Origin: Cercospora beticola
Lineage: Eukaryota > Ascomycota > Dothideomycetes > Mycosphaerellales > Mycosphaerellaceae
Assembly: GCF_033473495.1 (NCBI RefSeq)
Contig: NC_088940.1
Location: 992,001 to 1,056,000 of the forward strand
Direction of reading: 5' to 3'
DNA: 64,000 nucleotides
In this document: positions 36,790-40,215 of the stretch, piece by piece
Numbering within the stretch: position 1 is the stretch's first letter
Layout: each line of letters opens with the position of its first letter
Notes under the pieces: model-generated
Told to the model about the DNA's origin: nothing
The model's input: the letters and a program-made list of their open reading frames with translations, nothing else
Databases searched by the model: none
Made by a program: the position numbers and the translations under genes

Positions 36790-37366
36790 ATGGCCAAAGT
36801 GAGTACTCACAAAACCCCCCTCTGCATAACACCGCATTGACGAAACTCCACAGAAAGCATTGAAAACACAAGCACAGTCCAATGCGGCTACTCTCAATCG
36901 CACCCACCAAATCTCCCTCGCCATCAATGCTCTGTATCTGGTTTTGAGCCTGCTGGTCTTCCGTCGACGGAATCTCTTCCTCTACTTCCTGTTCAATGCC
37001 CCCGCTCTCATCATCGAATTCTGGTTCGATCGCATTGCTCGTCCTACCTATGTCGATGGAGAGCTGAAGCGAGCTGGCGAGGACCTCGATGCCAAAGGAC
37101 TGACCGAATTCATGTGGGATGTACTTTATTGGACGTGGGGTACCATTGCCCTTGTCTCTCTGGTCGGAGACTACGGGTGGTGGGTTTACGCTGTCGTTCC
37201 GTTGTACAGCATCTGGAGCGCATGGACCACCTACAGTGGATTCAAAACTGGAATGGGAGGCATGATGCCCGGTGGCGCGACCGAGCCGGCAGCTGCACAA
37301 GGCGGGCAGAGTAAGCGACAAGCTAAGTTGGAGAAGAGAGGAGGGCAGAAAGTGCAGTACCGGTGA
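36790..37366 (+). CDS. SND2: SRP-independent ER targeting protein Snd2/TMEM208
   Basis: Snd2 is an ER membrane protein of the SND pathway, an alternative to SRP and GET for delivering membrane proteins with internal or C-terminal signals. Two exons, 36790-36798 (MAK) and 36854-37366, around a 55 bp intron (gtgagt..acag) give 173 residues, like yeast Snd2. Hydrophobic segments are at about 22-38, 44-64 and 104-140. The family pattern KALKTQAQSN followed by LNRTHQISLAINALYLV, and the tail rich in Gly, Gln and Lys, are clear. The three-codon first exon leaves only 9 coding bases before the intron, so the gene is easily mis-started in automatic annotation. It converges with the small gene at 37468-37758. 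Confidence 0.93.
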
Positions 37367-37467
37367 GGAGGGGAGCGCACTCAGCTGAGGTAGGTAGGCT
37401 GCTACTATCACTTCCTACCAAATTCGTATTGCTGCTACATCATTCCAAGAGATCCACTACTGCATGG

Positions 37468-37758
37468 CTAAAACCATCCTCCTGGATACCCACCTGCGCC
37501 TGGCATCTGCATGCCCATGAACTGATTTAAGGCATTTTCATACCACAGTTGGTCAGCCATCGCACCTCTCTCACCTCCATACGCCGACTCATACAACCAT
37601 GAGCCTTCTGGGCCATACCGTTGGAGGTTGTTCGCCAGGGCTTGCTCCTCGCGATGATAGATGCCCGAGTGGAATCGAGGGTCCTGTAATCCACGATAGA
37701 ATGGAAGACGTGCATCGGAAGAGAAGCGTCGACCACGCGAACCTGGCCACGGTTGCAT
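37468..37758 (-). CDS. Small YPGG-tail protein, paralogue 1 (96 aa), unknown function
   Basis: A single-exon gene for 96 residues, ATG at 37758 with A at -3. It has no signal peptide or membrane segment. The protein is rich in Gly, aromatic residues and charged residues and ends FMGMQMPGAGGYPGGWF. The same tail pattern ends the two plus-strand proteins at 38239 and 38862, so the three form a local family. This copy is the most divergent: it has GPEGSW where the others have SGxPSGW, and an N-terminal part (RRFSSDARLPFYRG) the others lack. It faces copy 2 across a 480 bp divergent promoter region. I recognise no known family. Confidence 0.72.
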   Translation of the reverse strand: MQPWPGSRGRRFSSDARLPFYRGLQDPRFHSGIYHREEQALANNLQRYGPEGSWLYESAYGGERGAMADQLWYENALNQFMGMQMPGAGGYPGGWF

Positions 37759-38238
37759 TTTGTAGGTTGTCCTGGACTGTTGTGAGATTGGTTCTGGATT
37801 TGCTGTGGGCCGATTCGATCTGGGAAACCGTGCTGTGGATGAGAAACCAGCCAGCTGGAGGATCAGTCGACATATATGCTTCTTTCCAAATCACATTCAC
37901 AGCACTGGGAACTGTAGCGCAGAATGGCATGGTGAAGGACGGAATCAAAAGCCCACTCGCCACCTCTGCTCGCCTCGTTCACAGTTTCGAGAACGATATG
38001 CTTCACGACACTTGATGCTTTGGCTACTATTGTATCGTGCAGAGACGCTAATTATCAGTATTGCATTGCGGACTTTGATTTTTACTACTTCCTGTGAAGG
38101 TAGTGAACATCAACTCGCACGACAAATATCCGTATATTCTCCAGTTGAAAGCTCTTTTCGAGATTCCTTTCCATCATAATCTGCGTCGGCTCCACCAACT
38201 TATTGCACAACCAAAACAAGGCAATTCAATTCACAATC
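37759..38238. other. Divergent promoter region between YPGG-tail paralogues 1 and 2
   Basis: 480 bp between two divergent start codons of related genes. It should carry both promoters and could allow shared control. No specific motif was identified. Confidence 0.5.
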
Positions 38239-38502
38239 ATGTCCTGGTACGTCTGGCCAGGTACCCGCGGTCAACCAATACCCTCCATGCCACAAGGCTA
38301 CTACGGACCTGACGATAGTTCCTTTCGAGGACATAACCACATCGTGACAATGAACGAAGTGAACAAACTCCGTGCAAGCGGACAACCTTCAGGGTGGGTG
38401 GGCTATCCCGGCGCTGAGCGAGCGTGGACGCAGGATGCGAGGAATACGTTCATGGGTATGCAGAGGCCACAAGGAGGCGTGTATCCTGGTGGATGGTTTT
38501 AG
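38239..38502 (+). CDS. Small YPGG-tail protein, paralogue 2 (87 aa), unknown function
   Basis: A single-exon gene for 87 residues. The frame stays open to 38203, but the ATG at 38239 (A at -3) gives the compact start MSWYVWPGTRGQP. The middle carries SGQPSGWVGYPGAERAW and the end is FMGMQRPQGGVYPGGWF. Paralogue 3 aligns over both blocks (SGxPSGWxGxPxAExxW and the tail), and the 3' flanks of the two genes are also similar, pointing to tandem duplication. No signal peptide, membrane helix or cysteine is present, so it is probably cytosolic. Function unknown; the Trp/Gly/Pro-rich conserved parts could be a small binding module. Confidence 0.75.
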   Translation: MSWYVWPGTRGQPIPSMPQGYYGPDDSSFRGHNHIVTMNEVNKLRASGQPSGWVGYPGAERAWTQDARNTFMGMQRPQGGVYPGGWF

Positions 38503-38861
38503 ATAGGCTGTTTAGTTGCCAGTAGGAGACCCATTCTTGAGTTCGTAGGAACATGATATCGTGTTGACTCAATTGGGTGTTTCTTCACTGACGTATCATG
38601 GTAGTATTCTTCTGTCGTGAATGCCTCTGAAAGTGGTGGCTGAACAGTGGCAACATTGACGCCACGGGCATAACAGAATGACGGCGCAATTCTGTTTTGT
38701 GCTCAGTGTAGTGAAGAGTGAGAGCCTTCCATTATACATACCCCTTCAGCGCTCTCTCCTTCTGCTCGCCCTTGCAACAACATCTAGCAGCCCCAGACAA
38801 CGTTGTCACGCGAACTCTCACATTCCCGAAACTCAAAGCAACCCTCTGACAATCAGCAACC
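38503..38861. other. Spacer between YPGG-tail paralogues 2 and 3
   Basis: It includes, at about 38539-38572, a block (gagttcgtaggaacatgata) that recurs with few changes after paralogue 3 at about 39129-39160. The rest would be the promoter of paralogue 3. No other gene is seen. Confidence 0.6.
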
Positions 38862-39107
38862 ATGATGCCTCGCAAGGGATCAACCTACTCCGGCCCCCAC
38901 GACTACTCCTATCCAGGCCGAAAAGGGTTTCTGCAGGACAGCTGGCGTACTGGCCTCGATCGCGAGATAACTCGCGCTTCTGGTCCACCAAGTGGCTGGT
39001 CGGGTAGCCCTCGTGCGGAATCGATTTGGCTGTTGGACGCACACAAATCTTTTGAGAAGATGAACAAGCCGAAGGGAGGAGTGTACCCTGGTGGGTACTA
39101 CGGGTAG
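38862..39107 (+). CDS. Small YPGG-tail protein, paralogue 3 (81 aa), unknown function
   Basis: A single-exon gene for 81 residues, ATG at 38862 in a strong context (caaccATG); a second ATG follows directly. It contains SGPPSGWSGSPRAESIW and ends FEKMNKPKGGVYPGGYYG, aligning with paralogue 2 from about residue 30 onward. The final WF of the other copies is replaced by YYG. The N-terminus (MMPRKGSTYSGPHDYSYPG) is basic and Tyr/Gly-rich. No signal peptide or membrane segment. It lies 359 bp after paralogue 2 on the same strand and is convergent with the reductase gene (85 bp gap). Confidence 0.75.
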   Translation: MMPRKGSTYSGPHDYSYPGRKGFLQDSWRTGLDREITRASGPPSGWSGSPRAESIWLLDAHKSFEKMNKPKGGVYPGGYYG

Positions 39108-39192
39108 GTGTATCTGAGTGTCATATGTGAGCTTGTAGGAATATGATAGTGTGCTGAACTAGCTTCGATGGATCTTTGCTTCCTTCTCAGAC

Positions 39193-40215
39193 TCATTTCT
39201 CTATTTTGACGACAATTTTGCCCCTTGTCCTGCCCGATTTGAGCTCCACGAATGCGGCCTTGGCGTCTTCGAGGTCGTAAGTCTTTGAGATCACAGGCTT
39301 CAACTTGCCTTCTGCAATCCATTGCGCAAGTTTCGCATAGTCTTCTGCCTTCGTGACACGTCGCAAGAATTCTGCCTTGCGAGGCACGCCGCCGAGCAAG
39401 GTGGGCAGATACATCATCTTCCACATTTCAGACCAAAATGCCCATGTCAATGTCGCAGCAATGGTGATGTATCGGCCTCCGGGCTTAAGATATGCTGATG
39501 ACTTCCAGAAGATGGCAGGGGTACCAGCACAGTCCACCAGCAGATCGTATTGCGTTCCTTGTCGTGTAATGTGAGCTGTGACATCGGTGTTGCGATAGTC
39601 GATGACTTCGTCCGCTCCTAGTTGTTTGCACAGCTCGACGTTTGCAGAAGAGCACGTTGTCGTAACATAACATCCTAGTGCTTTGGCGATCTGGATTGCA
39701 AATGTACCCGTTCCGCCGCTACCGCCATTGATTAGAACTTTGTTGCCGGATCGTACATTTGGTGCCAGGCATTGATATGCTGTGAGCCCAGCGACTCCCA
39801 GCGTTGCTCCATCTTGAAATGATACTGCATCAGGGAGCTTGACGACATTTTCGACACCTCGAACAACAAGATATTCAGCCAAGGAGCCGAACAGCGGAGG
39901 ATCGCTGCGGCCAAAGACGCGGTCTCCAGGATTGAGGTTGGGAAGATTCGTCGATACGATCGTTCCCCCAAAATCACCACATGGAATGAATGGTCTTTGC
40001 TTGATGTTCAGGGTGCTATAAATGCTTGATTCGGGTAGCTTGTAGTCCACTGGATTGGGAGAGGCGTATGCCACTTTGACCAGTGCTGAGTTCGAAGGGA
40101 GTGACGCCGCTTCTGCAGGTAGTGATGCGTCTGTAGTGTAACGGATGTCCTTATCGATGCCTCTCGTCTGGTCGCTGCATTGTGAGGCTCGCATGGATTG
40201 AGGAAGGGATGCCAT
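39193..40215 (-). CDS. Zinc-independent MDR reductase (quinone oxidoreductase-like)
   Basis: A medium-chain dehydrogenase/reductase of 340 residues that probably reduces quinones or enones with NADPH. The frame continues to 40302 but only from a GTG; the ATG at 40215 (accaacaATGG) gives MASLPQSMRASQC, a normal family start. Visible are the catalytic-domain blocks NPVDYK, PFIPCGDFGG and NPGDRVFG, the Rossmann motif NGGSGGTGTFAIQIAKALG, the site FGSLAEYLV, and the end KSGRTRGKIVVKI, all of the ZTA1/RTN4IP1-like group. Zinc ligands of alcohol dehydrogenases are absent. The physiological substrate is unknown. Confidence 0.9.
   Translation of the reverse strand: MASLPQSMRASQCSDQTRGIDKDIRYTTDASLPAEAASLPSNSALVKVAYASPNPVDYKLPESSIYSTLNIKQRPFIPCGDFGGTIVSTNLPNLNPGDRVFGRSDPPLFGSLAEYLVVRGVENVVKLPDAVSFQDGATLGVAGLTAYQCLAPNVRSGNKVLINGGSGGTGTFAIQIAKALGCYVTTTCSSANVELCKQLGADEVIDYRNTDVTAHITRQGTQYDLLVDCAGTPAIFWKSSAYLKPGGRYITIAATLTWAFWSEMWKMMYLPTLLGGVPRKAEFLRRVTKAEDYAKLAQWIAEGKLKPVISKTYDLEDAKAAFVELKSGRTRGKIVVKIEK

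Follow-up and report, generated by a model that had tools for sequence, protein, structure and literature searches.

A 64,000-nucleotide stretch of the Cercospora beticola genome (C6:992001-1056000, hereafter the window) contains three small genes, A, B, and C, which together with a fourth copy elsewhere, D, appear from their sequences to make up an undescribed protein family. The reading we lean toward, tentatively, is that A to D encode regulated, mostly disordered intracellular docking peptides, that their transcription is driven from TATA promoters, and that the clustered mRNAs carry a common 3′ element. As a protein family it would be of an ordinary kind; the 3′ element is its unusual part, and it would repay a specialist's attention, as would the C-type copies, which change fast.

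The first-pass annotation had described three single-exon genes of 96, 87, and 81 amino acids, one on the minus strand followed by two on the plus strand. All three are intact there, each frame being open from ATG to stop:

37468..37758, minus strand: gene A, 96 amino acids, uninterrupted frame, N terminus MQPWPGSRG, C terminus YPGGWF (ORF list; relatives P0002 and P0003)
37759..38238, no strand: divergent intergenic region of A and B, 480 bp, presumably holding both promoters (sequence)
38239..38502, plus strand: gene B, 87 amino acids, uninterrupted frame, N terminus MSWYVWPGTRG, C terminus YPGGWF (ORF list, own-genome search)
38862..39107, plus strand: gene C, 81 amino acids, uninterrupted frame, without WPG[ST]RG, C terminus YPGGYYG (relatives P0004 and P0005)

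A six-frame search of the organism's own genome (36,074,111 bases) added D, a 94-amino-acid copy on contig C9 (L004:1498-1782). Similarity in this search was strongest between B and C (E 9.0e-12) and between A and D (E 4.4e-9), followed by B and A (E 2.8e-6) and B and D (E 2.6e-4); by these scores, the four are homologous beyond chance. In addition, A and B have in common a 22-nucleotide stretch coding for WPG[ST]RG, at 82% identity. Among the four detected copies, A and B are divergent, C lies in tandem after B, and D stands by itself. No fifth copy was found among the best-scored candidates when the genome was queried with P0012, P0013, and P0008. A match on C5 (E 0.11) was rejected as low-complexity Pro/Gln/Gly sequence by eye, and one on C2 (E 3.4), with two stops inside, was set aside as weak. 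An SND2/TMEM208 gene (36854-37363; Pfam E 6.3e-54) converges on A, a zinc-binding dehydrogenase gene (39193-40215) converges on C, an APC3/CDC27-like gene and an SMC gene are more distant neighbors of the cluster, and D adjoins a SWIB-domain gene. Neither neighborhood hints at a metabolic or mobile cluster.

Protein searches covering 5.77 billion sequences returned 13 identifiers, of which P0001 is B itself and P0013 is not significant (E 2.2). Each of the remaining 11 had an E value of at most 2.4e-3 in one or more of the searches, the better value for P0010 coming from a profile that already contained P0010. A later search came back without P0004, P0005, and P0009, the listing varying with the words used. 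Homologues in related fungi, proposed as a check at first pass, were thus obtained, and three of them carry organism names. CBER1_01740 of Cercospora berteroae (P0007), a hypothetical protein of 141 amino acids as annotated, is the probable orthologue of D and not of one of the clustered genes; after removal of its first 47 residues, it matches D at 87 of 94 residues (93%). SMMN14_04237 of Sphaerulina musiva (P0008) resembles the family in its size (84 amino acids), its MQPWPGSRG start, its W-A-F-M segment, and its GG-aromatic end; it differs in having YAGG in place of YPGG, and it too is a hypothetical protein. M409DRAFT_24376 of Zasmidium cellare (P0011), likewise hypothetical, has two tandem family-like units, each starting with WPG[ST]RG, but these sit in one model of 201 amino acids that lacks a YPGG end. 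Possibly, P0011 represents two neighboring genes fused by the predictor, and neighboring copies may therefore exist in Zasmidium too.

Sphaerulina musiva and Zasmidium cellare belong to the Mycosphaerellaceae, as does Cercospora, so that as far as named matches go, all three organism-named outside members come from this one family of fungi. Of the earlier description of an expanding, lineage-restricted family, the core (a small-protein family in several copies) holds up, and the lineage restriction holds for these named matches. Genes of such small size often go unannotated, and we therefore make no claim of absence from other fungi. As for prokaryote or viral relatives, one peptide pattern matched 13 stretches in viral contigs and two patterns matched 487 stretches in genome contigs, pattern matches only, and tblastn confirmed none of either set.

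In a tree of 17 rows, in which 6 of 14 inner branches are left open, A groups with P0002 and P0003 (100/99), C with P0004 and P0005 (97/93), and D with P0007 (99/98); B stands next to the C group (89/93, not starred), and P0008 and P0006 form a group of their own (98/96), apart from the four genes of this genome. A is identical to P0002 and to P0003 at 94 of 96 residues each, and C is identical to P0004 at 75 of 76 and to P0005 at 48 of 81; no close outside relative of B was among the protein-search matches. P0002 and P0005 were each recorded from a 3290-base contig of the same source and are probably on the same one, which would make A-type and C-type genes neighbors there too. Given that P0002 differs from A at 2 of 96 residues and P0005 from C at 33 of 81, a shared contig would mean either that C evolves much faster or that P0005 is a further copy.

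Are these real genes? The proportion of nonsynonymous differences is below that of synonymous differences in all six copy pairs (pN, 0.38 to 0.51; pS, 0.64 to 0.88). The comparison of dN/dS between copies called for at first pass gave values below 1 in all three defined pairs of the six (B-C, 0.17; A-D, 0.23; A-B, 0.41), dS being undefined in the other three. This shows amino acid constraint on the copies rather than its exact strength, dS being near or past saturation. Synonymous sites between B and C are near saturation (pS 0.74), and only 6 of 30 same-residue codons are identical. Over their last 30 codons, A and B have diverged less (pS 0.48), a possible sign of a younger tie or of local gene conversion in the cluster. 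Codon usage lends weak support to coding status: in-frame scores were low (A, 0.06; B, -0.08; C, -0.01; D, 0.01) compared to three genes at 0.16 to 0.43 that had themselves trained the score, and in B the +1 frame scored slightly above the coding frame. Against random synonymous choice, codon adaptation gave fractions of 0.017 for C, 0.008 for D, 0.10 for A, and 0.12 for B and is clearly beyond random in C and D only. This weak codon bias is what one would expect if A to D were spurious open reading frames without function; we consider that extremely improbable, given that other species have homologues resembling them at the ends, and given the amino acid constraint, the TATA sequences, and the 3′ element. 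Overall, all four copies look like genuine protein-coding genes maintained by selection. Starts at the family methionine are supported in D, where a TAG lies in frame 20 codons before MQPWPG at a place that the C. berteroae model translates through, and in A, where the 44 open codons upstream contain no methionine.

Each of A to D shows homology along the greater part of its length and has a GG-aromatic C terminus. The first-pass annotation had put the weight on the C terminus. Its pattern FxxMxxPxxGxYPGG followed by aromatic residues does fit A, B, and C, the tail of D (PRQEMYPGG) departing from it, and SGxPSGWxGxPxAExxW fits B and C. An invariant C terminus, however, did not survive comparison with the wider family: P0006 and P0008 have YAGG, and P0010 and P0012 end in GGFI. 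In an alignment of 14 rows, which includes the near-duplicates A/P0002/P0003 and C/P0004 and leaves out D and P0011, the N-terminal WPG[ST]RG is found in 11 rows and YPGG in 8. By this count, WPG[ST]RG, which is present in A, B, and D and lacking in C, P0004, and P0005, is the most widely shared family motif, and YPGG is clade specific. Four positions are invariant across the 14 rows (G8, Y21, F71, and G84 in B numbering), and G23, G48, and G85 are nearly so.

The earlier view that the proteins belong to no known family and lack a signal peptide, a membrane segment, and cysteine agrees with what we see. A to D contain no cysteine, and their highest 19-residue Kyte-Doolittle means fall below zero (-0.03 to -0.40), so that, by this measure, they would have neither a membrane segment nor an ordinary signal peptide. 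Pfam-A gave no family for A, B, or C at E up to 10 and none for any of nine aligned family members at E up to 1, in searches whose filters may drop weak matches; Con-6 and KGG, fungal families associated with stress and conidiation, would be likely candidates among Pfam-A families. In the Protein Data Bank, B had one match, not significant (E 0.93), and the family profile had none at E up to 1.

In composition, the four proteins are rich in Gly (15.6 to 18.1%) and in Tyr, Trp, and Phe (together 13.6 to 18.2%), with net charges of 0 (A), +2 (B), +5 (C), and +1 (D). By charge and hydropathy, all four come out as disordered, though A, B, and D narrowly; when their doubtful N-terminal extensions are counted, P0007 and P0010 come out as folded. 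Prediction of structure was another of the suggested checks. The AlphaFold models of A and B agree on two helices, the second of which spans the W-A-F-M segment (B, residues 57 to 75; A, residues 66 to 83), but confidence is low, with mean pLDDT values of 50.5 for A and 51.9 for B. By hydrophobic moment, none of 10 members fell below 0.05 against shuffles for an amphipathic helix.

We imagine the proteins as short, probably disordered, intracellular chains made up of an N-terminal WPG[ST]RG (missing from C), a middle rich in Gly, Tyr, Pro, and Arg, a possible helix that places W, A, F, and M at positions i, i+4, i+8, and i+11, a proline, and a GG-aromatic end. The two ends and the helix would bind a partner protein, and the differing middles of the copies may tune that binding. 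It is the conservation of single points within a probably disordered chain that leads us to the docking-peptide reading; the conserved end may be a binding module, as suggested at first pass, the structure models being of low confidence.

Composition could also be read differently. Aromatic, Arg, and Gly residues may act as stickers between spacers, in which case A to D would be condensate-type proteins that enter RNA-protein or stress granules instead of docking to one partner. The residue frequencies, the lack of cysteine, the net charges, and the placement on the disordered side all suit such proteins, yet the chains are short, and composition-driven condensation has no need of the four invariant residues; we think this rather unlikely. 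Hydrophilins are defined by Gly over 6% and a mean Kyte-Doolittle value below about -1. Gly in A to D lies above the first limit, but the rescaled hydropathies of A (-0.86), B (-0.80), and D (-0.93) do not reach the second, and C (-1.01) is borderline.

Small proteins in several copies also bring to mind effectors, and A to D might be unconventionally secreted or surface acting and work on the plant host. The far greater divergence of P0005 from C than of P0002 from A would fit this. However, A to D do not resemble cysteine-rich secreted effectors, having no cysteine and no signal-peptide-like hydrophobic segment, and a relative is present in Zasmidium cellare, a cellar saprotroph; an effector role is improbable. 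The family also resembles the lineage-restricted (orphan) small-protein families of fungi, which are short, have no known domain and a narrow known distribution, and come in tandem copies. It shares these features and differs from such families in its conserved terminal motifs and the cluster-specific 3′ sequence.

Turning to regulation, a single TATA is present within 250 nucleotides upstream of each of A to D, that of D lying at -142 from the ATG:

37873..37876, minus strand: TATA of A, -118 from the ATG (sequence)
38133..38136, plus strand: TATA of B, -106 from the ATG (sequence)
38733..38736, plus strand: TATA of C, -129 from the ATG (sequence)

A TATA between -145 and -102 was found in all four family genes and in 1 of 20 other ORFs of the window. 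The range was set after looking, and for some of these other ORFs the ATG used may not be the real start. The 20 remained from 21 picked out of 25 (four overlapping ones omitted) after one was lost at the window edge. A random 40-nucleotide stretch has TATA with a frequency of 0.035. Over 250 nucleotides upstream, none of the six pairs was significantly similar (lowest P, 0.068, for C and D). We imagine that A to D are transcribed separately from these putative TATA promoters. In yeast, TATA is reported to be enriched in promoters of duplicated genes, and genes with TATA are linked to variable expression (PMC3553024).

On the sense strand, GTAGGAA-N1-2-TGATA occurs 27 to 49 nucleotides beyond the stop codons of the three clustered genes:

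37406..37418, minus strand: 3′ element of A, GTAGGAAGTGATA, 49 nucleotides past the stop (sequence reading, pattern search)
38545..38558, plus strand: 3′ element of B, GTAGGAACATGATA, 42 nucleotides past the stop, core of a 30-nucleotide block at 38538-38567 (pattern search, block comparison)
39135..39148, plus strand: 3′ element of C, GTAGGAATATGATA, 27 nucleotides past the stop, core of a 30-nucleotide block at 39128-39157 (pattern search, block comparison)

The 36-Mb genome has four exact sites, three of them in the cluster; neither the genome pattern search nor a reading of its 3′ side found the element at D. The fourth site (C8:1573257, plus strand) we take as chance; it lies about 205 nucleotides past a 308-amino-acid ORF and before one of 349 amino acids, both on the plus strand and neither with family motifs. 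The motif was picked by eye before testing, and a later test let any two-part word be chosen: the longest such word that all three 3′ regions share was 12 nucleotides, compared to a maximum of 10 in 1,000 shuffled triples and 9 in 1,000 random real triples. The blocks of B and C are identical at 24 of 30 positions, a score reached by 2 of 10,000 shuffles and 14 of 10,000 random real pairs. For the 3′ side of A, the score against B was unremarkable (reached in 1,654 of 10,000) and that against C borderline (457 of 10,000). Genome-wide, the motif was not enriched, with 4 exact sites versus 8 for a reversed control and, allowing one mismatch with two-base spacing, 31 versus 99; being rarer than its control, it is not a general 3′ signal. 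RNA structure in the 3′ regions did not go beyond shuffles (z, -0.94 for B, 0.78 for C, and 1.26 for A), and the single Rfam match, outside A, B, and C, stayed below the gathering score (16.7 versus 40; E 0.28). In all, a short and rare sequence soon after the stop codon is probably common to the mRNAs of the three clustered genes.

How did this sequence come to be shared? A, B, and C each end in TAG, and each element holds a TGA in the reading frame of the ORF before it (37406-37470, 38500-38558, and 39105-39148), so the block could be the end of an extension made by stop-codon readthrough (...ILEFVGT in B and ...ICELVGI in C). This seems very improbable: in A another in-frame TAG precedes, the six B-C differences of the block are spread over codon positions, and B-C identity runs on beyond the TGA. 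Nor is it likely, though it deserves more weight, that the block is without function, left over from the duplicated unit or brought about by local gene conversion. It does stand at the corresponding end of all three clustered copies and is lacking at D, which lies elsewhere, and the lower saturation of A and B at the ORF 3′ end would suit conversion; on the other hand, an unselected relic as old as the near-saturated synonymous sites of B and C should not keep 24 of 30 positions. Both judgments apply to the block alone and do not add to those on the proteins as a whole. Given that saturation, selection on the element would be the simplest account, with local gene conversion as its main alternative.

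In the docking-peptide reading, the 3′ element of the three clustered mRNAs would probably fix stability, 3′-end formation, or translation of these messages together. One can also envision, with considerable doubt, that the cluster is a posttranscriptional regulon, in which divergent paralogues come under one control through a linear 3′ element and a dedicated RNA-binding factor, and the disordered peptides are alternatives that dock onto one conserved hub. The cluster-specific element would then have outlived the saturation of synonymous sites. If it is functional, the element would be a directly testable mRNA tag that outlasts the synonymous sites of its own genes.

In the library searched, no paper was found for five family peptides or for CBER1_01740, and the openings of abstracts on related topics do not name the A-D family; it is by these searches, together with the Pfam and Protein Data Bank results, that we call the family undescribed. 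The clustered genes seem to have been missed by annotation, since the named records comprise only the orthologue of D, one Sphaerulina protein, and one Zasmidium protein. A family of such short proteins may thus go almost unseen in crop-associated fungi. The annotation of CBER1_01740 probably includes 47 residues too many.

The surroundings of D hold a few further features. A stretch on the minus strand (L004:1783-1923) matches the N-terminal extension of CBER1_01740 and is closed by an in-frame TAG. A 374-amino-acid ORF (L017:3588-4712, plus strand) that has no Pfam match adjoins D, and before it lies a small ORF (L004:6-203) that resembles the start of a Zn2Cys6 transcription factor.
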